Origin: Bolinopsis microptera
Lineage: Eukaryota > Ctenophora > Tentaculata > Lobata > Bolinopsidae
Length of the DNA: 64,000 nucleotides
Direction of reading: 5' to 3'
NCBI RefSeq assembly: GCF_026151205.1
Contig: NC_087073.1
Span: forward strand, 3,362,001 to 3,426,000
The stretch's first letter is position 1. Each line of letters starts with the position of its first letter. A program made the position numbers and the translations under genes. The notes under the pieces are model-generated. The model was not told the origin of the DNA and did not search any database. It saw nothing but the letters and a program-made list of their open reading frames with translations. Of the stretch, positions 4,735 through 64,000 are shown in pieces.

Positions 4735-7700
4735 ATGTTAATATTATGGCTACAGATGATAACTGTTGTTGTCGGAGATCATTGGGTCTCCAAATTTAAA
4801 GAAAAAGGTATGTTACTTTTACAAATTGTCTTTGTGTAACTAAAATTTCTCATTTTCAATGTTAGTTCAGATTTACCTTTCATCTGATTTGTAAGTAGTA
4901 TTCCTTCTTTATGTCCTATGAGATAATAAAAAAGATGTAAGAAAACTATCGTCACTGTGTTGGCGAAATTTAGCGCTGATTGAAATCGTTCTCACTAAGA
5001 CTGTTCTGCAAGTCAACACGTCTACATAGCCTTTTATACAAATGTCTAGACAGCCAAGATGCTAGCCCTTCACTGGCGTACTTTCTTTTACATCCTTTTG
5101 TTTTACCTGTCATCCTTTCATCTTATTGTCTACTGAATACATACGTTGATGACTAGGCCTTTTGTTGTTTTTATGGTGGACACATCAAAGTGCTAAAAGA
5201 ATTGAAATATAACGTTCCCACACTCATTAGGGGGTTTCTCCTGACTCATGAGTACATTAAACTATACATTTACGTTTCATTAGATTTAATCTGGAAATGT
5301 CATTCTGTTGCCGGAACAGGTTCTGGAGAAGTAGAGCACCATTTTATTAAATCAATTTGGGTTCTGTGGAGTAATGTGCTGAGGAATGTAAAGGTAGTTT
5401 CACGTTAATTTGCACTGTCTAGAACCTCAATCTATTCGTGCATATTATAGACTATGACACTAATTGATTGATACGGCTCATCTCATTACGTAGAATCTAT
5501 TGAGCTCTTCTGATGTTTATATCTAGAAATATTGGTGGGACTAGTTTGTTGGCACCAACTTCGTATAGTGACTAAAAATCAGTCAGAGGGGGAATCAGCC
5601 ATACTGGAGTGTGTTTCGTTTATTTTGGATCTTTTTCCATATAAAAATGATCTAAAGTCTTCATAGTGAGTGTGCCAGTTTGCCAGCGAGTGTGCCAGTA
5701 TTTTAGTGCCATGTAAAGCAAGTTCCGCTGTTACACGTTAAGACGAGGTGATATCCTGTCGCTGTGAAGAGTGTGGCTACTACAGTTGCTAATGCACACT
5801 CAACTAACATGTAGCATCCAGTGTTGCGCTCACCGCACACAAAGACAAAGTGTGTATGTGTGTGTGTGTGTGTGTGTGTGGTGTGTATCAAGCTTATTTT
5901 TATATTCTTTCCAGGCCACTACGTGGGAAAACTGGCACCAGCTTGACGGTCACATTTTCTCTCATTTTCTTTAAATTTTAAAACTGATTTTCGGTGAAAT
6001 ATTAAATATTTTAGGAGTATAAAGTATAGCGTGAGTAGTTGAAGGTTCACCGAACTTTATTTTATTTAACCGCCTTGAGTCACAAGATTTCCGAGCCGAA
6101 CGAAATCATCGTTTATGAAGTTGGGAATTAAAAATACGGTTGACGTAAGCGGAATGATATTCAGATCGTCGTCTCTGCTTGTCAGACCAACGAAACTTGT
6201 TCGAAAGTGGAATATTCTGAGGCAAAGCTCCTTTTGGAAATTCCCTTCCTCCCTCTCTCATAATAATCATTACACTATCGAAAATAACGATTACAATATT
6301 CCTGTATCTGTCATATCCCATAGAACTACTCAATTACATAATTGCACGTATTGCCATGGGAAATTATCCTTATTGTCACTTATTCAATTAAACCTTGAAT
6401 GAAAATCCTTCATAGTATTGTATTTAGTGGAATGTAATCTAGTGAGTCTACCACTCTATCCTCATTTCTTGGTATTTGTAAAGCTGGAAGGACTTACTAA
6501 AGTCCCGCATTGTGGGGCAATATACCCTCTAGCTGAGAAAGTGACAATATTACACTCCTTTGCGAAATCCCTCCAATCAGGATCTCAGATGGAATCCTGG
6601 CTAGCCAATGAAAACACTGTCCCGGGTCACGAGCCAATAACTGTACTGGGCTGTCAACCATCGGGAGAGTGTTTAATTATGTGCAATGAATAATGAGCAT
6701 GTTGAAGTTGTGGCGTATAACAGTCATTCTGGGGGCGTCTGGAGAATTAAAGAATTATGAGGTCTTTGGAGTGGTACTGGGTCTCAATGACTATTCTACT
6801 GATCATAGCTAGAAACTGTTCCCTCTTATTACCTTCTTAAATATTGTTTTTGGGTTTAAAAGGACCAGTATTTTAGCTATTAGCTGACTCCTGTATTTCA
6901 GATTGCTACAGTATTTTAGCTATTAGCTGACTCCTGTATTTCAGATTGCTACAGTATTTTAGCTATTAGCTGACTCCTGTATGTCAGATTGCTACAGTAT
7001 TTTAGCTATTAGCTGACTCCTGTATTTCAGATTGCTGCAGTATTTTAGCTATTAGCTGACTCCTGTATTTCAGATTGCTACAGATGTTCTAGATACGATT
7101 ACGATAACGCTAATTTCTCCTCCCTTGTCTCCGTCTCACAAGATGAAATCGTCATCGGAGCCAAGTTAGTAATAATATTAATTATACTAGAACAATTTGA
7201 TAATCATTTATTAATGAATCATCTTAAACTGATTTTACGGCGTATTTATCTGCATGACAACATCTGCAGTTTCACTAGAATGAGTTAATGATTGTTTGTT
7301 TACATGTTCTGCATTCTTGCATTTTTCCAGCAGGGATTCCACCGTTCCTACATACGACTTTGCTAATTCTGACGTTTTGTTCACGCTCATACGCTAACTA
7401 AACACTAAGCTCTCACAACATTGTTGAACTGAACTGAAGCATATAATTTACCATTTCGTCACTAAAAGTTATTAAAACGCCAGACGATCATGTGGTGGAC
7501 TGCAATTCCGTCATTCACCATTAATTATTTTTCAGAAACACAGTTTACAAGATAGAGTTCGAGTATCAGAAAGTCACTCCTTTTGTCGACGAGGTAAGAC
7601 CAACGCCACAATTACATTATCTTCTACAATACATTCTGACAGACTATTGTTTTACTTAAAATTTTGTTTTACTGTTATTACTTGGTGAGGATAACCATTT

Positions 7701-49917: not shown

Positions 49918-50584
49918 GGAGCTCTATAATTTGTAGTTATATAGATTACTGAATCTGGGTAACTGATACTGTTTAGTGTTAGGCGTGGTAGCAGAGTTAA
50001 AGAAGAGAGAAATAATTTATTGAGTATGTATCATGTATGTACAAGTTGAGACAATGTTTATATTATCTTGGGAGATTTGTATGCTTTATTACGAGAACAA
50101 GGTATTTAAGATGATAATAGACACGAAGATTATGAGAATCCGCCTTTTAGTTCTAGAAGTTTTCACAATTAAATGTATGTTTTTTATTTTAAGTTATTGT
50201 GAATATTTTCAAAAACAAATAGTTTTAAAAACTAAAAGTACGGTAACAGACTTGTTATTTTCATGAGCAAAATTCAATTGTCAATGTATTGACAAGCTCC
50301 AATCACGATGTATGTTAAACCTAGGCGTTTAATGAATCAAGTATATCATATGGTGTACATTTGTACAAGTGTCATATAATATCTCCCTATTTCCATGCTA
50401 AGAGAGGTTTAATTAATTATCTGCTCACCGTGTTATCAGTCTACTTTCCAGGTGTTAATATCCTGAGAACTGAACTTACCCAGTATCTTCTGATGATTTA
50501 ACTACACAACGCGTTTGTAAGTTAAAAGTGCCAATCATTGCATTACGTGGAACGTTGCTGACGCTGAGAAAATCGTTACATAAT

Positions 50585-51917
50585 ATGAGAAATTATACAT
50601 GTCAAGAGCTACAGAGTCACTTTTCTGTTGAATCAAGCGAAATCAATTTGGACAAAATTCTGGCAACAGGCCAAGTTTTCAGATGGCGGAAGTTTGAGGA
50701 CACTTGGTTTGGTGTTATCAGAAACAAAGTATGGGTTCTACGACAGGACATGTCTGGAATTCATTACACATTCCATCTTGTGTATGAAGAAAATGAAAAG
50801 GAAAATGTAAATGTGAAGCCAGTTGACGAGTTGTTTGAATACTTCAACCTCAACCACAAACTATCAGAGATAACCAAACCATGGATATCATCAGACAAAC
50901 ACCTCAGCTCGCTCCTCACATCACACCAGGGCCTCAGACTTATCAGGCAGGACCCTTACGAGTGTTTACTGGCCTTTATAACGTCCTCCTGCAACAACAT
51001 TCCCAGAATATCTTCCCTCATGCTTAAACTCTCTCAGCTTTCCCAGCATAGTGTCACAATTAATGACACTCAGTTTCATAGCCTCCCCGATATCACTATT
51101 TTCCAGAAACCAAACACTGAGCAGAAATTGCGGGCGCTAGGGTTCGGCTATCGTGCAAAATACCTGGTTTCAGCAATGTGCGATGTTTCAGGACGAGGAG
51201 GATTGGAATGGCTGGAATCTCTGAGGCATGTGGAGTTGAGTGAAGCTCGGAAAGAGTTGAGCGAACTTGCTGGAGTGGGCCCTAAAGTTGCTTCTTGTGT
51301 GTGTTTGATGTCCCTTGATAAACACGATGCCGTCCCCATTGATACCCACATTTATCAAGTACGGACATTTTCTCAATTTGAAGTTATACGATCTGCTGAT
51401 TATTCTGTCACCTTTTGATTGTAATATTGTTTATTTATTGACCTACACAATGTGATATCTCAAAAGCTTAGTTGTTTGAGCCTGATCATAGTTTTTACTT
51501 CAGGTCGCTGTTAAGTACTATGGAAGACCAAATAAATCTCTAACACCAGCACTACATAACTCTATCGAGAAGTTCTTCCAAACAAAACACGGACTGTTTG
51601 CTGGCTGGGCTCAAGGATATCTCTTTTACTCCAACTCTAAAAAAGATGTCAAACCTAAAAAAGTTGTCCTAGAGAACGACTCCAAAACAGATGTTAAATC
51701 TAAAGAAGTTACTCTCAAGAATAGCTCCAAAAAAGATGTCAAGCCTAACAAAATGACTGTCAACAACAAAAACAAGAATAAAAACGTAAACCAGAAAAAT
51801 AAACCAGAAAAACGACCTGTTGATACAAATGGTACGAATTGTGAGGTAATCATTGATCTCGATGGCAATCTTACTAAGGTTTTACCGAGAACAAGGTCAA
51901 AGAGAACAAAATCTTAA
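50585..51917 (+). CDS. OGG1: 8-oxoguanine DNA glycosylase
   Basis: Two exons, 50585-51358 and 51504-51917, giving 395 residues. I take the ATG at 50585; no in-frame ATG lies further upstream in the open frame. The N-terminal domain shows ILATGQVFRWRK, then LRLIRQDPYECLLAFITSSCNNIPR. The helix-hairpin-helix GVGPKVASCVCLMSLDK holds the catalytic lysine (about Lys234), and AVPIDTHIYQ holds the activating aspartate (about Asp253). Their 19-residue spacing equals that of human Lys249/Asp268. FAGWAQGYLF closes the catalytic domain. OGG1 excises 8-oxoguanine opposite C and nicks the backbone. The last roughly 90 residues are an added Lys/Asn-rich tail with three 15-residue repeats, probably nuclear-targeting or nucleic-acid binding. 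Confidence 0.95.
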
Positions 51918-52606
51918 GGTTAATTTAGGTATCTATTTTTACATTGATAGGCAATGCAGTTGGCTTTTATATATTTGAATTTTGAAATTGAAGTTTTGAT
52001 GTTTTTACCAAGCTTTATCTCGTTTCATTCAAGTTTTTCTCATCTCGTATTGGGAAGAATTATATTATGTGAACTAACCGAATTCAACTGGATTATTATT
52101 TCGATTTGTTGTATTTCTGTAGCTTACATCACATTAACCATCAAGTTTTTATTAAGATGAAGATTAGTATACAATGTTATATGACCTAGACGAATAAATT
52201 CTGTGCTTTTCACCATACAAAATACATTAATATATATATTATATATAATATAATATAATATATTTATCATATTATATACTATATTATATGCATTATGCAC
52301 TCATTTAACTCATTCAACTTTTAAACATTGCTTCTCCTGACCATTTACAAATGTTTCCTACTTCATCTGCATACATCTACATTAATAATATTAATGATAT
52401 ATAATAAAAGAGTAGATTTCAATTGATCTCATTAACCATTGCGTTGGAACTTCAGCAAACTTGAATTCAACAACTGGGCAAATGTTTATCAAATCAACAG
52501 AATCGATTCAATTACATACCTATGCATTCTGCTGAATTTCAACATGTAACACCCTTACTCTCTCAATGAAATGTAACCCTCTAATCTCTATACCACGGAG
52601 TAGGTA
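51918..52606. other. Intergenic spacer with AT-rich tract
   Basis: No coding features. A nearly pure A/T run of ATATA and TATAA words lies at 52228-52292. AATAAA at about 52193-52198 may end the OGG1 transcript. The frame 51954-52160 is a chance hydrophobic frame. Confidence 0.5.
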
Positions 52607-55600
52607 ATGCCGGATCAGGTCTCACGGCTCTTGCCGGATCGTACACCAGCTGGTGAGCGACAATGGTGCAGCATCAGATGTCCGGAAGGGGAAATGTTCA
52701 ACAGTAAACCGGACAGATGTAAAACTTTGTACCAGATATTCCAGCGCGGACTGAGCATCAGCATGGACCAGCCCTGCATGGGCTACAGACCTACCCCAGA
52801 TGGACCTTACTTCTGGTTGACTTACAGTGAAGTATCACAGAATGCTGACAACATTGGTTCTGGTCTGGCACACAGAGGGGTGAAGAAGGCTGAGTTTATT
52901 GGGATCAGTTCACATAATAGTCATGAGTGGAGCACCCTCTCTATCGCCTGTGATGCTCAGGTTTTTCCATTAAATGCTTCTTTCCAACGAGTTGAATGTT
53001 TGCTAAAAATTCAATTTTCTATTAGGTTCTTTGCAAGATTTAAATATTTTCCCGAATGAAACTGTTATCCTGGATCCCTACAACAAATAAATCTCAGAGT
53101 TTCATCCTGTGTCCGCTCTACGACACTTTAGGAGAGGAAGCTGTTAAGTTCTGCTTGAATCAGACTGAACTAACAATATTGTTCGTGTCTGAGAAGACTA
53201 TCAGTACTTATATCGGATATCTGCCCACGGTAAGAGCTTTACCCAACATTTTCATTGTGTACTGGAGTGTACTGTACAACCTTCCTTAGATCGGAGTTAT
53301 TTATTTAAATTCTTAATAATCATATAGACCGGTACGGTCGTGGTAGTTCTTAAAATGTATTTCATTGTGTAATCACAAGGTTCCTTCAGTCACCCCACAT
53401 AAAAACGATCGTGAAAATCGGCAGCGACGTAACGGACGAGGAAAAGGAAAAAGCGGGTAAACACGGCGTAACAGTGATGACTTACAAGGACTTGTACGCA
53501 GAGGGGGAAGCGAACCCTGTCCCACACAATCCACCTCAACCAGAGGACATAGCCACCATCTGTTACACCAGCGGCACAACTGGTCAGTTTTCGTACTCAG
53601 CTCTGTGTCAAGGCCTGTGTTCTATGATTTTACCGAGTGATTGCATTCCATCATGATTTGTAAATGTGCGCATGTTCTTGGTGGTGGTTGAAATGTTTAT
53701 CTAGAATACCCCGGGCTTGAGCGGACCACTATAAGTCTATTAAATGTTGTGCAGTATGTAACAGGGCCTGCTGCATGAAGTTGCTCGTAGGATTAGGAAC
53801 ATCCATGGCATCTCTGATCGTCGCATGACAGCACACATATTCGTTGGGATGATTTTGAAATTAACGATACAATTGCCATGTCTGAATAAATAAAAATTAG
53901 AAAGACTGGTTGACGATGCCCCTAGGTCTACCAAAAGGTGCCATGCTGTCCAATGGTGCTATGGCCAGCACAACCTATGCTGTTTCCATAATGTTGAACG
54001 AGACTAGCTTTGTACCCGAGGATGTCAACATCTCTTACCTGCCCGCTAGTCATGTCTTCGAACGAGAACTTCAGGTAACAATTAAATAAAACTCCAGCAT
54101 TTGTTTTTACTCCTATACGATCGTCTACCTTTTCTGTGCAGGAAACCCAAAAGGGGTGATGATCTCTACGTATGCAATGACAACGACGGTTGAAGCCGTT
54201 GGGGATATCTTGGGTCCAAGTGAGACCTTTGAGCCGGCAGATTGCGCCATTTCTTATTTGCCGCTGGCGCACGCTTTTGAGCGTGGATGTCAGGTACTAC
54301 TTTTTTGTTCTTATTTTTATTTTGTGTGTGGTGTAGCAGGTAGCTGTATTGGCATGGCACACTTTTAATCCACTTCGCATCTTTCCCTACCCTGTTATTT
54401 GGTATTGTTAGTGACAGCGTAAGTATAAAGTTTTATGTTTTTTTAACGTTGGTATCTAATATAATCAGTCAAGTGAATAATTGTGGCTTTTTTGACAGTC
54501 GCATGCAAAACTGTGATTTATATGAAGCATTTTAGTGCACTTTGAATGATTTCTGAAAGGTAGCAACTAGCATTAATGTACCGGAATCTTGAAGTTTCAT
54601 TGTCAGTCTGGAGGATTTATCCTGTCAAGATTATTAAATAAATATTATATCAATAACGAATTTTATACATGAGGCGAGTTTTCGGAATCAATTAAACAAG
54701 ATTGGAAACTTACGACAGTAAATCCAGTATCAGCTGTCTGAATTCTCAAGAATCTAGTCATGAAATCCGAGTCTAATTGGCAAAAATTACCAAATGATAC
54801 ATAAAACCCCACGAAACGCCCAATATTTCCCTGTTGTTCACGCTCATATCAACTTTCCTTTCGTGTCTCAATTCACAATTCACGTCATATTCAAAAGTCT
54901 AGAATCCCTAGAAAGCTAGAATGGCGTGCACGCACAACGGTAAATTATCAGCAGTCGTCTTTAAGTATAAAGCAGATAAAATGGAGTCACACCTAAGATA
55001 AGAAGTAGAGGTTCGAATTTGAAGTTGAAGGTGAACGTGTGAACATGACCTGATAACTGGGAAGTGTGTCATGACCGTGCTAGAATATGACACATCACCA
55101 CTACCAAGTGGATCACTTCCAAACAATTCCGGCGAGAGTGAAGATTTTATGGAGAACATGTTCGACCGTTCGAATTGCACTAATACTATGATAATATGAT
55201 GGCGATTACGTTGAATGTAGATTGTGTGACCGTTATAAAAAGTTGGCTGAAATTACATCCGACGATAATTCAACGCCGTGTAAGAAAAGGATTTGTCAGC
55301 ATTTGCGGCATTTAAACACATTATCTTGTGGCCTGAGTCACGACTGTGATCAGAACATGTAGCAGAAAATTGAAACTTCCAAAAATAGCTCAGAACGTAA
55401 GTTCATTAAAAGTTTAATAGAAGTGAAGGATAACTATTTTAGTTCCTCAAAAGTAGGCATAGCAGCAAGACTCTTATTCAGTATGTCAGCTATTTTTGTC
55501 ATGAAGTTACAATATGTAATTATAGTAGTACTGGTATTTGACTTGTAGTTTGTACCAAAAAGCACGGTATTGCAAAATTATAATTTGTCCAGGAAAGTAA

Positions 55601-58600
55601 AACAATGAAATTCCTGAGCAATTTCATTGTTCTATAACGGTAAAAAAGTTCCTTCGGCTCTCGGCACGTGTGAAATCGTAGAAATGACTGGAAGTTCAGA
55701 AATTGGCCAGTGCAGGTACGGTTTATCATGCTTCACTAACTTAGGGGGAGGGGGGAGGTCATTCTAACGAATTACAGATTCAGATTTCCTGGGAAGTACG
55801 CAAGAATCACAGGAGAACTAGGTTCCAATCTACATTATATTACTGTGCCGCAACATTGGCTGCAGCAGTGCCGCATTATATTCAGATTATACTGAATTAT
55901 AAATAATTATTTACATATTTCATAACTTACACACAATTTGGATCGTTATTATATTTTTTTCGAAGACGTAAATGGACAATGAAATATAAATCCTGACCCC
56001 CTTATTTACCCCAGTATTGCATCCTGAAAGCAGGAGCGCGGATAGGGTTCTGGCAGGGGGACGTCAGGAAACTGAGCGGAGACATGATGGAACTGAAACC
56101 TACAATATTTGCAGCTGTTCCCAGGATCATTAACCGGATATATGACAAGATCATGTCGGAGGTTTGTGCGTTGACTATAAAAATATAAAACTTTATAGTT
56201 CGTGGGTACCACACCAGTTCAAAATTTCCCCGAAATTTCAGGACCTGGAAATCAAATCTTGTTAATGTTATTAAGTCGTCCAGAAACTAACCTGTTCATT
56301 TTTCCTTAGCACTCTGGATCGTAGGTATTAAGCTACTTTGTAGACACCTTTAATTAAATGTTCATATTGTTTGATTTGGGAAAAATCTACCACTAGTTAT
56401 ATCATTGCAAATACTTTCATACAATGAACGTACAATTCAAATTAGGGGCCATCTACTTAGGACGTCCGGCAAATATGGAGGGGGGTGGTTTTGGAATTTC
56501 GGACAAATCCGGACAGGGGGAGGGGGGGGTTTCTGAAAATCCGGACGTCCGGAAATTTTGGCAGAATTTACGAAAAAGTCCCATATATTTCAACTCTTTC
56601 AATTTTATTTCAACTCTTTGAATTCTATTAACAATGAATTTGAGTTGGTTTTATTTGTACTCTTAAAAGTAGCTGGAAATCCGGACGTCCAGGGGAGGGG
56701 GGGGGGGGGTGGTTTTGAAAATTCAGACACACCCGGACAGGGGGAGGGGGGATGGTCTGAAAATCTGCGATTTTGGCGGACGTCCTAAGTAGATGGCCCC
56801 TTACCAGAATTTAGTTGGTGCCGTTCTATTATTCCTTCCTTGCAAAGTAGTGCCATCAAAACCTTGCTCAGCTGTAAAGGATTCATATATGTTTCTCAGG
56901 TGAAAGCAAGTGCAGTGAAAAGTTACCTGTTCAACTGGGCTCTCGGAACGAAGACTGCTGAGGTTGAAACTGGAGTTATCAGAAACAACAGTTTCTGGGA
57001 TTATGTCATCTTTGGAAAGGTAAATATTGAGGTTCTTTGCATGACGTATATTTCATGCTTAGCATTAATGGTGATTTAAAATAGTTAATGTTTTCTCTTC
57101 AAACCAAAACATGAACATTTACCTCCTCAGGTACAGAAGATGCTTGGAGGGCGTGTTAGACTGATGCCTTGTGGAGCAGCTCCCTTCAAATACGAAGTTC
57201 TGCAATTCTTCAGGGCAGCTCTAGGTGCTGTCGTTCTCGAGGTAAAAGTTTAAAATTTGCCGTTTTATAAAAAATAGTACGGCTTACTCTCAATCCACAC
57301 CTGCTCTACACTCAGAAAGGAATTTCATTGTCTACAAAAATAAATTTCAAGTTGTTCGCGAACATATAATAACCATGACACTGGTAACCATGACAATGGT
57401 AACGATGACACTGGTAACCATGACACCGGGATCCCCAGGGTTACGGACAGACAGAGAGTTGTGGGTGTGCTGTTGTATCGATACCAGGAGATTACAGTGG
57501 CAGTTGTATCGGAGGAGTTGTATCCAACACCATCTTGAAACTTGAGTCTGTACCTGACATGGGATACAATACAGAGAACAATAAAGGTTTGGGCGGCATG
57601 TTACTGTTAATTAAGGAATTGTTTTGTACGGTACATACTACATAACCGTAATAACCGTGTATAACTGTGGTCAAGTACCTCTAGACTCAAACTGTCAGGT
57701 AAAATTAGTTTTATAACAAGCTGAGCCGTGATACTAACGACACCTGTATAATAGTGTAAATTATTACAGTGTTTTCAACTTGTGTTTTATCTTACTTTAA
57801 ATAAAGAAAAGTCATTAAATTAATCTGAAAACTTCAAAATTGAAATGCCGTAGTAGATTGTCAAGAGAACTTCATAATGGGTGTAGTTCACCTCCCCAAC
57901 GGTATATTAATTGTAATGTTATTTTAGAAATTGGCAGCAAAGTTTATTGCAATTATTAAGAACGATAGTTCTCGTTTATTTTGGGGCTCTCAATAATTAA
58001 AATTCTCCCGTGCAAACAATTGCAATTATACTTTCTCATTTCTTCAGCGTCAGTCGTGTAATGATGTATCTGAGCTCTTGTAATGATCAAAAGATTCTAT
58101 CAATGATCTGTATAATCTCTAGTACATTGTATAAATATTGGAAGTCACGCTGCACGTACATACTACATTTTAGATAAACAGGTGTTTGTTGTGACTATTT
58201 TTATGAAAAGCTGTGTACAAAGTTTTTTACCTCCAGCTTATGAAGTGGTAAAGAAGAGGTAAAGGTTTGAGGTATTAGGTTCTAGTTTGTCAGACAACTC
58301 AGATCTACATACTCTCTAAATTTCACTTAATGGAATTTAACCCATCTGGCTGACGACACAACATACAATAAACAATCTGACTCGAGTAATTTGTCCTGGA
58401 CACGAGCCATAATATTTGTATGCATGCCATCCCAGCGACTAGTATCCGTTCATGTTGATATATTTTAATCTAGACTTAGATATCTGTTAAAACTAAGCTT
58501 ATAAGATAACGAATAATATTTCTTATCAGGTGAGGTGTGCCTTAAAGGATCGGGCTTGTTCTCCCACTATTTCAAAAACCCTGAGAAAACAGCAGAGACT

Positions 58601-61600
58601 CTGGACGAAGATGGCTGGCTGCACACGGGCGATATCGGACTCATGACCGAGATGGGGGACTCCGGATAATCGACCGGAAGAAGAACATTTTCAAGTTATC
58701 TCAGGGGGAGTATGTTGCACCGGAGAAGATAGAGCTTCTGTACGAGAGGTGTCCTCTAGTTTCACAGGTACTGTTACTGTTACTGTTACTGTTACTGTTA
58801 CTGTTACTGTTACTGTTGTCAATATTAGGCTTGCCTTATTGACTTGGTCACTTGCACGATCAGTAAAAAAACAAGGATATCTGTTGAATGTGTTGATGAT
58901 GCGTAAGTGTGGGAGATTATAACCAAGCTAAATACTGATGACGTAATACTGATGACGTAATACAAAGTTAGGTATGAAGGTGTAAGAGGTAAGGGAGAAG
59001 TCTATATTTATACTGCTTACAAAACAATCATCATGTTTCCAGTCTGCCACAGCTGTCACCCAGGCAACAGCTGAATACTCCTCCAGGTATATTTAGAGAG
59101 CGGGGACACGGGGTAGCCATAGGGTGAGAAAAACATTCACAAGGACTTTGTAACGGTATTATATAACACCGATTAAATTAAACAGTTTTAAACTGATAAC
59201 GTTTGAAGAGCCACATAACGCCATGATGTACGATCTCATATCAAGAGTCCGTCACCAACGTTTAACTGTCGGTGCCTTCAATATGATGAAAAATGTGATA
59301 GAATTAGATGAACTAGGATGTGAAATAAAGGACAGTGGGAGTCCGGGGCCTGTTTACTTTCTGTCGTGTGGACTTTCTTAGATATCTCTCTTTGTAATTT
59401 TCGTTGAAAAATGAGATGCAGTCCGGGTTGAAATATTTCCAACCCGTTACATAGATTTGTAGTGTTGTTAGTGTAACGTTTCCGGCGCTTTAAATCGAAA
59501 TTTCTTGCTGTGATTCATCCATGGAGACGAATACAGCAGATCTCGACCAACTCACCAATGATACGAGTAGTTTTATCACCGATGAAGACGACCGCCTCAC
59601 TATGGACGATCTGGTAGAGAAACTGATCCGAGGGCGGACATGGAAGTACACAATTCTCCTCCTATCTCTAAACTTCATGTGGCTGGCAAAACCCTCTCAC
59701 CTCTACATTTCTGTATTTGCAGGGATGGATCCGAGCCCTGGTCACTCCTGGACCTGTGCATCTCAGAGGTGCGAGGACTTGGTAAAGGAGAACTCCTCGC
59801 TCAGCGAGATGTTACCTTGCTTCACATCTGAGGAGAAGGACGGGACTCAGAAACTTCTGCTCCAAAACGCGGACATTGAGTGGGATTTGAACAGAACTTC
59901 GTTTTCGGTAGAGTTTGATTTGTACTGTAATGTCGGGAACACACGGACTAAGAAAACTCTGGTATCCTCAATATTTTTTGCCGGTGCTTTAACCGGTCTC
60001 TTTTTGGGAGGATTCATGTTCGATCATATCGGGAGAAAAAAAACAGCCACCTTTGGTTATATAGTCTTAGCTTCAGCTGTCTTCTGCGGGACCTTGTGCC
60101 ACAATTACGGATTTCTCTTGGCTATAAGATATTTTCAAGGCATTGGCGACATTCTCTTATCTACGGGCATGATTATACTGTCCCTAGAACTAACCCCCGC
60201 CACATTTAGGAACTACATCCTGGGATTTTTCGGCGTATGTCTTGCTTTCGGATTTCCTATAGCTACTGGTTTGCATTATTTTATACCGGACTGGAATTTC
60301 AATTTCCTAGGAGCTTCTGTTCTTGTGGCAATATTTAGTGCTCCCGTTTTCACCTGCATCGAGTCACCAAGGTTCTATCTTATAAACAAAGATTTCAAGT
60401 CAGCCAGGCGGTCCCTCAAAGCTCTGGCATCGCTCACTACTTCGGATTTTGAGTTTGATAAGGTGGGATTGGAGGACCTCCTAAGCGTTACGGACAAAAT
60501 GAGGGAGCAGACGCTGAAACAACAGTTGATGGACCTGAGGGACAATCCCACCCTGCTCTGCGAGACCCTGGTTATGATGTTTCTCTGGTTCTGTGGAGGG
60601 TTGTTCTTCTTCAGTTTTAACTTTGGTTGGGCGGCAATACTCCCAAACCTGTACCAGGGTTACTTACTGGCGGGAGTTGGGGAGCTGCTGAGTGCGGTTG
60701 TCTCAGTTCCCCTTATCGCCCATCTGGGGAGGCGACGTGCTATGATGACTGGGTTCCTGGGGGCTGGATTCTTTTATTTGTTAGCGATACCTGAGGTGGG
60801 CTTAGGAGGACAGTGGACTCTAGAGATGGTATCCTGTTTGATCGGGTATATCTTTGTATCAGGCTGTTTCAGTGGAGTTTGTCTTTGGACAGGTGAACTA
60901 GCGCCAACCTCTCATCGGGGCTTTGTCGTCTGTGCCTGCTCCAGCGCCTCCAGAATCGGCTCATTTCTCGGACCCTACATTTTCAATAACCTGGCTCCAG
61001 TCACTTACAAATCTGTTCCTCTTGGAGGTCTAGCTTTCCTCTCAGTTCTGTGTGCGGCAGGGTCGTTTCTCCTGGTGGAGACAGGGGACAAGAAGATCTG
61101 CTTAACTGGAAAGGACGTGGTCATTAGAAGGAAAAAGTACTTCAGATATATGATTTAGAGTAAAACGGAAGGACAGTCATTTTGTGTTACTTATAATTTA
61201 TATCATTTATCAATTTCAGTGGCATTAATTAAGGGGTTAAACAATAGCCAAAAAGTGATAGCGTTATATGTGAACAACCCCGGCCCTTATGTAAGTTATA
61301 AATCATTTAATCAATAATTATAGTTGATATAATATAGATGGTGGCTGGTTGGTCTTGTAAATTTGCTTTTACGTGTGACTTTAAATTAAAAATTGTAAAT
61401 TACGCCCACATTCCAAATCAGTAGTAGTATAGCATTAAGTATATAATTGTGATATATGTTTCAATTTTGTGTGAAAATAAATTATAGTTATTAATGCAGA
61501 AAATTTACGCAATTTGAACATTCCAAAGGAAGTCTCATGATGACAACTCAGTATTAAAGAAATTCTTGAATAATTTGAGTTTGGACAAATTTGTAAGCAA

Positions 61601-62808
61601 TGCAAACTGCAAAGAATAAAGTATTGTTGACGTCAAATACTGCAAATTAAGATTTACTCAGAACTTATGCTTAAATCCTCGCATGCGTTTTAATAGCTCA
61701 ACCTTTTAAGATTTAAATGATCGAAATATGTTTCTTTGTCACATTAATGACTTTAAATAATCAAAGAAATGTTTCCTTTGATAGAGCAGCCTGGCATTGA
61801 ATACTGATAATCTGATTTATTTTCTCGGAGAAGTATTTGATAGCAGAAATGTGTTTTGTTATGTTTAGTTATCTGTATCAACACTTTAACTGCTCTTCTG
61901 GCTATGTTAACATAGTTCCGATCCGTTACAGAGTTACAGGCTACTTATGTTTGTTTTTAATTCTTAAATAAAACAATTATTTTAAATAAAACAAATCTAG
62001 ATACAAATGGACAATTAAAGAAACGTTAGTACCCAAAGGGCAGGAAAGTAACAGGCCGCTAAGGAACAACAGCCTGATTTTACATCAATTTTATCGCCAG
62101 CTGGACAATCCCCGCAAACAACACAAATTTGGATAAACTTCCAACGTCACCAGGTAGATGTGACGTCACCAGGTAGATGTGACGTCACCAGGTAGATGTG
62201 ACGTCACCAGGTAGATGTGACGTCACCAGGTAGATGTGACGTCATCAGGTAGATGTGACGTCACCAGGTAGATGTGCAATTTTACACGTTTACTAAACAA
62301 TGGTCTTCTGTGGGCAGGTGTGCGTGTACGGTCAGTCCACTAAGAACAACCTGATAGCACTTGTCATTCCTGATGAGGTGGCTGGCAAGAAGTGGGCCAG
62401 GGAGAACGGGGTCGAAGATACGGCCATGGAGAATCTCGTCAAAAATAAAGAGTTCAGGAAAGATATCCTCACAGAGGTATTATGTGGTTTATTTAACAAT
62501 TTCGAAACTCTGAATGCCTCTGAACTTTTTATGACATCATTAAAAGTTTAATCAAGGCCTTTCCAGATAACACGTGATTTTTGAATTCTAAAATTGTATT
62601 AATTGACATGATTTTGTGTTTACAGGTAACGAAGCTTGGAAGAGACGGGGGTCTGCGGTCCTTTGAACTTGCTAAGAAACTCTACCTGGACTACATCCCC
62701 TTCTCCGTGGATAACGACCTCATGACCCCAACCTTCAAGCTAAAGAGACACAACATCGCCAAGCATTACGCGGAGAGCATCGAAAAAATGTACGAAACAT
62801 TGGACTAA
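52607..62808 (+). CDS. ACSL: Long-chain acyl-CoA synthetase with alternative gate exons
   Basis: Exons: 52607-52960, 53098-53229, 53390-53582, then either 53926-54074 or 54142-54293, then 56015-56161, 56900-57019, 57131-57241, 57439-57586, 58530-58767, 62318-62476, 62626-62808; about 644-645 residues. Landmarks are YTSGTTG plus PKG (ATP/AMP P-loop), SYLPxxHxFER (gate), [16 protein letters not shown] (adenylate), [30 protein letters not shown] and a C-terminal TPTFKLKR. It activates fatty acids to acyl-CoA with ATP, normally on the ER or mitochondrial outer membrane. No N-terminal TM is visible, so an upstream exon or a shorter form is possible. The exon 58530-58767 is one base short: the frame breaks after GLMTEMGD near 58654 and resumes at RIIDRKKN, probably an assembly deletion. 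Intron 10 contains an SLC22 gene. Confidence 0.93.
53926..54074 (+). CDS. ACSL: ACSL alternative exon A (gate variant 1)
   Basis: Encodes about 50 residues beginning GLPKGAM and ending [14 protein letters not shown]. It starts in phase 1 and ends in phase 0, exactly like exon B. It has its own acceptor (CCCCTAG) and donor (GTAACA). It aligns with exon B over its whole length with roughly half the positions identical. Confidence 0.88.
54142..54293 (+). CDS. ACSL: ACSL alternative exon B (gate variant 2)
   Basis: Encodes about 51 residues beginning GNPKGVM and ending [14 protein letters not shown], closer to the common ACSL consensus. It has a good acceptor (TTTTCTGTGCAG) and donor (GTACTA). 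Only 67 bases separate it from exon A. Joining A to B would shift the frame, so a functional mRNA can carry only one of them. Confidence 0.9.
56445..56800. mobile_element. Harbinger-like MITE with TIRs and TTA target duplication
   Basis: A 356-bp element in ACSL intron 5. The left end GGGGCCATCTACTTAGGACG and onward TCCG is repeated in perfect inverse at the right end (CGGACGTCCTAAGTAGATGGCCCC), about 24 bases each. TTA flanks both sides (56442-56444 and 56801-56803). GG-rich termini and a 3-base TTA/TWA duplication are typical of PIF/Harbinger. The interior is two related halves containing GGACGTCC words, G-runs and CCGGACAGGGGGAGG, with no transposase. Frames at 56424-56621 and 56558-56788 are artefacts of the element. 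Confidence 0.85.
57373..57427. repeat. 15-bp tandem repeat next to an ACSL acceptor
   Basis: CCATGACACTGGTAA repeats about 3.7 times and ends 11 bases before the exon starting at 57439, so it occupies the polypyrimidine/branch-point zone of that intron. Confidence 0.85.
58768..58816. repeat. (TACTGT)n starting at an ACSL splice donor
   Basis: About eight copies of the hexamer begin immediately at the donor GTACTG after the exon ending TTCACAG at 58767. The first intron bases are therefore themselves part of the microsatellite. Confidence 0.88.
59521..61158 (+). CDS. SLC22: SLC22-type organic ion transporter, intronless, nested
   Basis: One uninterrupted frame of 545 residues in the major facilitator superfamily. 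It has a 40-residue acidic cytosolic N-terminus, TM1 (about 43-68), and a large cysteine-containing extracellular loop (69-145) closing with the SLC22-like SVEFDLYC. The MFS signature [12 protein letters not shown] (163-174) after TM2 follows, then ESPRFYL before the central loop, a second LGRRRAMM motif, and later TM helices with [13 protein letters not shown]22 carriers move organic cations, anions, carnitine and zwitterions across the plasma membrane; the substrate cannot be read from sequence. It sits on the same strand inside ACSL intron 10 and has no introns, suggesting a retroposed copy or independent loss of introns. AATAAA at 61476-61481 may end its transcript. An antisense frame at 59490-59678 is a shadow. 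Confidence 0.92.
   Translation: METNTADLDQLTNDTSSFITDEDDRLTMDDLVEKLIRGRTWKYTILLLSLNFMWLAKPSHLYISVFAGMDPSPGHSWTCASQRCEDLVKENSSLSEMLPCFTSEEKDGTQKLLLQNADIEWDLNRTSFSVEFDLYCNVGNTRTKKTLVSSIFFAGALTGLFLGGFMFDHIGRKKTATFGYIVLASAVFCGTLCHNYGFLLAIRYFQGIGDILLSTGMIILSLELTPATFRNYILGFFGVCLAFGFPIATGLHYFIPDWNFNFLGASVLVAIFSAPVFTCIESPRFYLINKDFKSARRSLKALASLTTSDFEFDKVGLEDLLSVTDKMREQTLKQQLMDLRDNPTLLCETLVMMFLWFCGGLFFFSFNFGWAAILPNLYQGYLLAGVGELLSAVVSVPLIAHLGRRRAMMTGFLGAGFFYLLAIPEVGLGGQWTLEMVSCLIGYIFVSGCFSGVCLWTGELAPTSHRGFVVCACSSASRIGSFLGPYIFNNLAPVTYKSVPLGGLAFLSVLCAAGSFLLVETGDKKICLTGKDVVIRRKKYFRYMI
61476..61481 (+). terminator. Candidate polyadenylation hexamer for the nested transporter
   Basis: AATAAA about 317 bases past the SLC22 stop, inside the host ACSL intron. 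If used on the host pre-mRNA it would truncate ACSL. Confidence 0.4.
62145..62275. repeat. 19-bp tandem repeat with six perfect CRE palindromes
   Basis: CGTCACCAGGTAGATGTGA repeats seven times (one copy has ATCAGG). Each junction creates the full palindrome TGACGTCA, at 62161, 62180, 62199, 62218, 62237 and 62256. The array ends about 40 bases before ACSL exon 11. Confidence 0.93.
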
Positions 62809-64000
62809 ACTGTCATACTTTAGAAGAGACCTGTCTCACTCTACTGTGCCTACCAGTTTGAAAATTTTATATTTTGTAGAGTTTTACATAATTGCTATCA
62901 CCAAAGATATTGTCCGAAAAATTAATATACAGTGTTATTTGTGTGGTTTTGTGGTTCTTTGGCCAGTATGTTGGAGTTATAAATTATTGTAGTAGTCGTG
63001 AGATGTGTGGTAGATTGATGAAATAGAGTTCCAATAAATCAATTATTAATAAAATGTGTAGTGCGGACTATTTAATAAATTGACTTTTTGGAGATAGTGC
63101 TTCATTAGAAATATCTTTACTTGTTGGCAAGGAATGACTGATGGTTGTACTAGCGTGTTTCTGCAATTATTTGATTGAGAGCACAAGATATAACAGTATC
63201 TATAGCTTGAAATGCAAACTTTGAATAACAGGAGATTCTTATAGTCAAGTTGTTAATTTCATTCTGACCCTTGGCCTTGGAGCACTAGAAGATTGTTTGT
63301 TGATCGCAGATTGTTAGAAAAATTTAACATATCGTAATATCATTTTGTTGAAATCTGATTTTTCTATTTAATTTGATGGATGTTTGCGACTCAGTAAATT
63401 TTATAGTTTATCAAAAAATTTGTGACCGGTTAAAATATAGAAACAGTAATCAGAGTGAAGTGTCCTTTTTGCAAAGATTCGAATCATAATAACAGTACTT
63501 GTGGTTATGACCTTGTTAGGACATCACGTGGTTATTTCACCAACACTAACTACCTTAATCTACTGGTCACAAATTTAAAGTTTTGCTTGCTGATTTCTCG
63601 TTTGGAACATGATTTTTGATTGTCGAATAATTTTATTAATAATAATTTACTCAAAATCTATTTACCGACTGTTATTTATTTATCAAAATCCCTAAAATAT
63701 TAACAAAGTTTCAAGTTGTTCAATCTAAATATAACTCTTATAGATACAGGATCACGTACAATGGTCAGTTTAACAGGGTAAACTACTTGAAGGGAGTGAG
63801 CTGCAAATAGTTTATGCCTATCAGACTATTCTAAAAAGTCCGGCTAAGATTGATTTTAGGCAATTTGTAATAACATGGTAAATGTACCTTAGTTTTTAGG
63901 GTGTGTAATGCTCCTACTTATCCTATACCAACTCAATCAGTAACTTGCTGAGTAGTGTCACTATCAATGTTATGATGTGATAATGATTATGAAGGAGCAA
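62809..64000. other. ACSL 3' UTR and gene-free flank
   Basis: No coding features. AATAAA hexamers at 63033-63038 and 63048-63053, about 225-240 bases past the ACSL stop, are the likely polyadenylation signals. A CACGTG lies at about 63526. The rest is AT-rich. Confidence 0.5.

Follow-up and report, generated by a model that had tools for sequence, protein, structure and literature searches.

Tandem, probably alternative exons at the fatty-acid gate of an ACSL gene of the ctenophore Bolinopsis microptera, and a second such pair in a paralogous gene

Human ACSL1 and ACSL6 each possess mutually exclusive exons for the fatty-acid gate, 26 residues in length (PMC1543647). A gene of the ctenophore Bolinopsis microptera for a long-chain acyl-CoA synthetase (ACSL), an enzyme that activates fatty acids, carries two consecutive exons that encode this same part of the enzyme, and the locus raises the question of whether one or the other of them is used in the transcript, and whether such a switch was inherited from an ancestor shared with vertebrates or was acquired separately. 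The first-pass annotation had proposed that the two exons are mutually exclusive, had pointed to a vertebrate ACSL1/ACSL6 precedent, correctly so according to PMC1543647, and had considered the switch to be either ancient or convergent. Here we analysed the stretch of 64,000 nucleotides that contains the gene (the window, G000:C2:3362001-3426000), and searched the genome (264.65 Mb, 232 contigs) for related genes.

The ACSL gene lies on the + strand at positions 52607-62808 of the window, and its exons, all on this strand, were modelled from open frames and GT/AG sites. The first coding exon (52607-52960) is an open frame with a GT donor, and the first in-frame ATG (52607-52609) was taken, by choice, as the start codon. 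In the spliced model it is followed by exon 2 with the PLYDTLG motif (53098-53229) and by exon 3 (53390-53582), which ends at phase 1 within the P-loop (ICYTSGTTG). Next come the alternative exons A (53926-54074) and B (54142-54293), each encoding the PKG end of the P-loop and the gate, and then the first shared exon downstream of the pair (56015-56161), two further exons (56900-57019 and 57131-57241), an exon with the GYGQTE motif (57439-57586), an exon in which the frame apparently shifts by one base, at a run of G near 58655 (58530-58767), and two C-terminal exons (62318-62476 and 62626-62808), the last of which has the stop codon at its end. These C-terminal exons are located beyond a nested, same-strand, single-exon MFS transporter gene (59521-61158; Pfam MFS_1, 8e-30, and Sugar_tr; SLC22-like by eye), which is housed in an ACSL intron of 3550 nt. 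The ctenophore Hormiphora is reported to have many nested genes (PMC8527503). A short repeat of the GTTACT type (58768-58815) starts exactly at the donor of the exon ending at 58767.

The spliced model contains the AMP-binding domain, P-loop, PLYDTLG, gate, GYGQTE, HTGDIG and C-terminal part of a long-chain ACSL, the C-terminal part being read in the neighbouring frame relative to the upstream exons. These motifs are the ones commonly associated with ACSLs, and the gene is probably of the ACSL1/5/6 type, judged against human sequences that were entered by hand and are not database records. When the sequence up to HTGDIG was used, Pfam AMP-binding matched both isoforms over the same range, with 256.1 bits (6.1e-76) for B and 252.8 bits (6.3e-75) for A. 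Among the best 60 of 144 solved-structure sequences, the best matches were carboxylic acid reductases and an entry named oxidoreductase, and no member of the ACSL1/3/4/5/6 family was present by name. The matches did include CG6178 (7kyd), a fatty acyl-CoA synthetase resembling luciferase, and 1ult, a long-chain fatty acid CoA ligase that we take to be the structure on which the gate was originally described.

Exons A (149 nt) and B (152 nt) are both open, are preceded by AG and followed by GT, and have entry phase 1 and exit phase 0. Exon 3 stops one base into a Gly codon of TSGTTG, to which A adds GT and B adds GA; therefore the Gly codon is restored with either exon, and the protein continues with LPKG or NPKG. 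At the other end both exons finish after FERxxQ at phase 0 and run into the first shared exon. The two have the same residue in 24 of 49 aligned codons (49% identity), and their alignment score is 101, where 1000 shuffles averaged -23 and never exceeded 8. The first-pass annotation had described a segment of 50-51 residues at roughly half identity with the same phases; the identity and the phases held, while the length is more exactly 49 and 50 full codons plus the split Gly codon. A comparison of the 12 exons with the gene region at E 0.01 gave A and B as the single matching pair, and no other repeated exon was found.

A and B are thus adjacent homologous exons of the same phases, and their double inclusion disrupts the product. 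In the spliced model a transcript with both exons stops after 281 residues, in agreement with the earlier statement that joining them shifts the frame, and a transcript without either stops after 265 residues. The intron between them (54075-54141) is 67 nt long, the shortest of the 11 modelled introns, and is a candidate steric block to A+B splicing. The next shortest has 111 nt, as expected from the annotation, which had put all the others at about 100 bases or more. In five other ACSL stretches of the genome (L036-L039, and the second paired gene described below apart from its gate spacer) the introns were about 107 nt or more where adjacent matches allowed estimates, and one in-frame intron of L039 was about 99 nt by eye. 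A steric limit of ~50 nt between donor and branch point is given in PMC7969005, although this is a vertebrate threshold and may not be that of the host. With the branch point at least 18 nt before its end, a 67-nt intron falls under this limit, and an intron of 49 nt, the spacing of the gate exons in the second paired gene, necessarily does so.

We propose that the 67-nt spacer would be too short for efficient removal, so that exon 3 would be joined to either A or B, and the chosen exon would then be joined to the shared exon at 56015. Transcripts with A+B, or with both skipped, would hit an early stop and be lost, and steric exclusion combined with the frame-shift penalty would result in strict A-or-B splicing. 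Differences between the two predicted proteins would be confined to the end of the P-loop region and to the strand and turn that surround the gate. The frame arithmetic, the intact splice sites, the very short spacer and the constraint on both copies (see below) all point the same way as the first-pass proposal. From the DNA sequence we therefore consider it likely that A and B are tandem-duplicated, mutually exclusive exons of an ACSL1/5/6-type gene, which were duplicated in this lineage independently of the vertebrate pair and of the pair in the second gene.

Such a switch would require both exons to be in use. The synonymous sites between A and B are saturated (pS 0.78), dN is 0.50, and identical bases were found at 33, 28 and 18 of 49 codons for codon positions 1, 2 and 3, respectively. 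Because the synonymous sites are saturated while the protein sites are constrained, both copies look selected and not decaying; together with the open frames and AG/GT sites, this is consistent with both being functional, as had been annotated. An alternative is that one of the exons is a disused relic, or cryptic duplicate. Some features do lean that way. The pyrimidine tract of A is poor and weaker than that of B, by eye, although both exons have intact splice sites; B fits the published motif D-x4-(F,Y)-LPLAH-x2-E, the strict LPLAH of which is present in B alone among the four gate exons of the two paired genes; and the 3' copies evolve faster, with end branches in the exon tree of 1.49 for B against 0 for A, and of 0.98 for the 3' copy B' against 0.1 for the 5' copy A' of the second gene. 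However, even at saturated synonymous divergence all four exons retain open frames, AG/GT, the gating tyrosine and the LPxxH histidine, codon positions 1 and 2 are more alike than position 3, and the LPASH of exon A is also the gate of the single-gate paralogue L039. We consider it unlikely that either exon is a relic, and prefer two working alternatives.

Neither A nor B contains a stop or a frame shift, either of which would have counted against the annotated pair. The apparent one-base shift of this gene is located elsewhere, at the G run (58650-58665) within the shared exon 58530-58767, and as assembled it would end the A isoform after 497 residues and the B isoform after 498. Downstream of the shift the neighbouring frame stays open through the last two exons to 62808, as would be expected of an assembly error or of a recent allele. 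The broken frame in the assembled sequence could also be read to mean that the gene as a whole has recently become a pseudogene. Against this, there is the open neighbouring frame downstream of the shift, the shift lies in a G run, where assembly errors are common, and the second gene has the same kind of exon pairing. A pseudogene is thus improbable in our judgement, and the shift may be an assembly error.

What the two exons would change was judged against human ACSL6, in which the gating aromatic is residue 319, just before LPLAH, and residue 316 interacts with it (PMC2868784). The human alternatives have H or L at 316, their F- and Y-gate isoforms show about a tenfold difference with oleate, and the form without the gate had no reliably detectable activity over background (PMC2868784). 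The equivalent of Y319 is retained in all four gate exons of the two Bolinopsis genes, and position 316 differs inside each pair (N/A in the window gene, F/M in the second gene, H/L in human). Further differences within the window pair lie at 322, 323 and 325 (LPASHV versus LPLAHA), bearing out the contrast of SYLPASH and SYLPLAH pointed out by the annotation, and at nine more positions within the 26-residue frame. Whereas the human switch is Y/F at 319, the switch proposed here would keep the gating tyrosine and exchange its neighbours at 316, 322, 323 and 325, with N or A at the ACSL6 316 equivalent and LPASH or LPLAH at the gate. By analogy with the human gate isoforms, this swap may tune activity or acyl-chain preference, and we infer a shift in acyl preference or rate between the A and B isoforms. 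Two gate types that are found one per gene elsewhere in this genome, LPASH in L039 and LPLAH in another paralogue, L023, can thus probably both be produced from the window locus.

A genome search with ACSL segments, together with the reading of six stretches, gave 8 recognised ACSL-like loci, namely the window gene, L022/L003, L023/L002, L039, L036, L037, L038 and L034/L035; this number is a lower bound because the genome search scores only the best candidates. Tandem gate exons were found in 2 of the 8. The second pair belongs to the paralogous ACSL gene L034/L035 (G000:C2:15957000-15972000), on the same contig as the window gene and about 12.5 Mb from it. Its gate exons, at 6926-7086 and 7136-7296 of L034 (G000:C2:15963925-15964295), are 161 nt each and 49 nt apart, run from phase 1 to phase 0, and have 23 identities over 53 codons with pS 0.78 and dN 0.51. 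The resemblance to the window pair thus extends to the tandem arrangement, the phases, the very short spacer and the loss of frame if both are used, the remainder of a both-exon transcript being out of frame. The two pairs differ in both boundaries, as the second gene's exons start after PKGAMITH and end at GFYQ, and in that LPAAH is present in both of its copies. No other repeated exon was found in the second gene when 8 segments of its model, which is incomplete, were compared with its own gene region at E 0.01. A tandem repeat array with a unit of ~60 nt, by eye, adjoins the first gate acceptor of L034.

As for the other loci, the gate lies in a long uninterrupted frame in L022/L003 and L023/L002, and as a single gate within a long exon in L039. 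When 11 gate peptides were searched against nine stretches that span the 8 ACSL-like loci (window 50000-64000, L002, L003 and L034-L039), no match with an E of 0.01 or better resembled an additional gate copy, and weaker, chance-like matches occurred. The long uninterrupted frames of L022 (~12.90 Mb) and L023 (~15.95 Mb) on G000:C2 contrast with the intron-rich ACSL paralogues. L023 may have arisen as a retrocopy of the second paired gene, from which ~15 kb separate it. L036, L037 and L038 are all on contig C9. The possibility that these are of the ACSL3/4 type was rejected, as the body tree puts them with the other ACSLs, away from a human ACSL4 outgroup that was not a database record. L037 (G000:C9:14203000-14212900) and L038 (14309500-14319400) are very similar ACSL copies ~100 kb apart, and the P-loop exon is present in L038 and was not found within the L037 stretch.

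We then compared the gate exons with one another in an alignment of A, B and 12 other rows, of which 7 were from this genome and 5 were human rows entered by hand and not drawn from a database. The exact human exon start and the apparently shared 3' boundary rest on these hand-entered letters. The human 26-mers agree with the literature in their length, in the number of differences between them (11) and in the alternatives at 316 (H/L) and 319 (Y/F) (PMC2868784).

The window pair is like that of human ACSL1 and ACSL6 in enzyme family, in gate segment, in its tandem arrangement and in the choice of one exon, which for the window gene is a prediction. One explanation is that an ancestral-animal ACSL already had the gate pair, and that the window gene and vertebrate ACSL1/ACSL6 both inherited it. 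The same enzyme group and functional segment would suit such a history, as would the apparently common 3' boundary after FERxxQ at phase 0. The 5' boundaries do not agree with it, because the window exons, of 149 and 152 nt, start at phase 1 about 23 codons further 5' than the 26-residue human exons, and both copies include the upstream half. Human forms that skip both exons exist (PMC1543647, PMC2868784), whereas skipping both here breaks the frame. A and B also share two odd sites that are absent from the human and paralogous rows: they have no H in column 10 and A for N in column 12, where 12 of 12 other rows have H and N, although these correspond to about 10 independent sequences at those sites because the second-gene rows share the upstream exon and the ACSL6 rows share upstream letters. 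Nor do A and B divide as the human exons do. Both have Y at 319 where the human alternatives have Y and F, and neither shows a clear affinity to one of them, with 19 and 20 of 50 residues of A, and 18 and 20 of 51 residues of B, matching the hand-entered ACSL6 F and Y rows, respectively. Shared ancestry with the vertebrate pair is disfavoured by these boundaries and shared residues, and we hold it to be improbable. Between the ancient and the convergent switch that the annotation had left side by side, the convergent one is favoured because the human exons have 26 residues against ~50 here, and because A and B share the two odd sites.

A convergent origin with respect to vertebrates would still allow a single duplication in an ancestor that the window gene shared with the second paired paralogue, if intron positions shifted later. 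These are two ACSLs of one genome with equally diverged gate pairs (dN 0.50 and 0.51), as such a duplication would predict. Both exon ends differ between the genes, however, and identity is higher within the genes (25/50 in the window gene and 25/55 in the second gene) than between them (13/41, 8/41, 10/41 and 10/41). In the exon tree, a check named by the first-pass annotation, A and B pair up (93/85, not starred; bootstrap unsettled) against the 7 genome and 5 hand-entered human rows, and the two pairs stand apart, though no branch was starred. An alternative tree joining A to L039 was not rejected (p-AU 0.11). The exons of the second gene were ungrouped in the best tree, which puts the 3' copy beside L023 (82/85), and a tree forcing the two together was not rejected either (p-AU 0.11). 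The exon tree weakly accords with an independent origin of the window pair, and leaves the second pair ungrouped. A single duplication preceding the split of the two paired genes is disfavoured by the exon ends and the identities, and there is little reason to expect it.

Three separate duplications are favoured, mainly because of the exon boundaries. On balance we incline to the reading that the ACSL gate is a hot spot at which exon switching was invented repeatedly and independently. There would then be three origins or more, with the vertebrate ACSL1/ACSL6 lineage accounting for one and different genes of a single ctenophore genome for two. Each origin, on this same reading, bounded the exon differently and yet swapped the same structural element and the same gate-adjacent residue.

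In the course of the genome search, 111 homeodomain matches were obtained, on contigs C1-C13 plus one on C27 near 6 kb, along with 18 innexin matches. Two pairs of innexin matches were equal in score (G000:C1:4254005 and 4378223; G000:C7:6754013 and 6935049), suggesting recent duplicates or uncollapsed haplotypes. The nuclear-receptor zinc finger had no match in the genome, an absence that is suggestive only, since the search matched no control genome either. Ctenophores are not known to possess the nuclear-receptor zinc finger.

Mammals are already known to switch tandem exons at the ACSL gate. Mutually exclusive exons have also been predicted in a ctenophore, in the muscle myosin Mhc2 of Mnemiopsis (PMC3912159), where the tandem exon pair likewise lies beside a nucleotide-binding P-loop, though in a protein unrelated to ACSL. 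Convergent tandem-exon switches in orthologous genes are described for vertebrates, arthropods and nematodes in PMC9741552, which does not contain the string ACSL in its main text. In the open-access literature, judged by titles and the starts of abstracts, we found no paper on ACSL exon switching outside vertebrates. As far as these searches show, the new elements are the occurrence in a second lineage, with what are probably two independent events in one genome, exons of another extent, and a proposed switch in which the gating tyrosine is retained.

The window pair offers natural paired variants, at position 316 and in LPASH/LPLAH, from which gate selectivity could be learned. The lineage is probably as distant from vertebrates as any animal, and pairing is found twice in its genome with different boundaries, which suggests that animals invented ACSL gate-exon switching more than once. 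With a second lineage, two cases in one genome and different exon boundaries, the repeated use of the same solution in fatty-acid activation becomes a testable claim. If it is true, splicing would be a general animal means of retuning the fatty acids that enter membranes.
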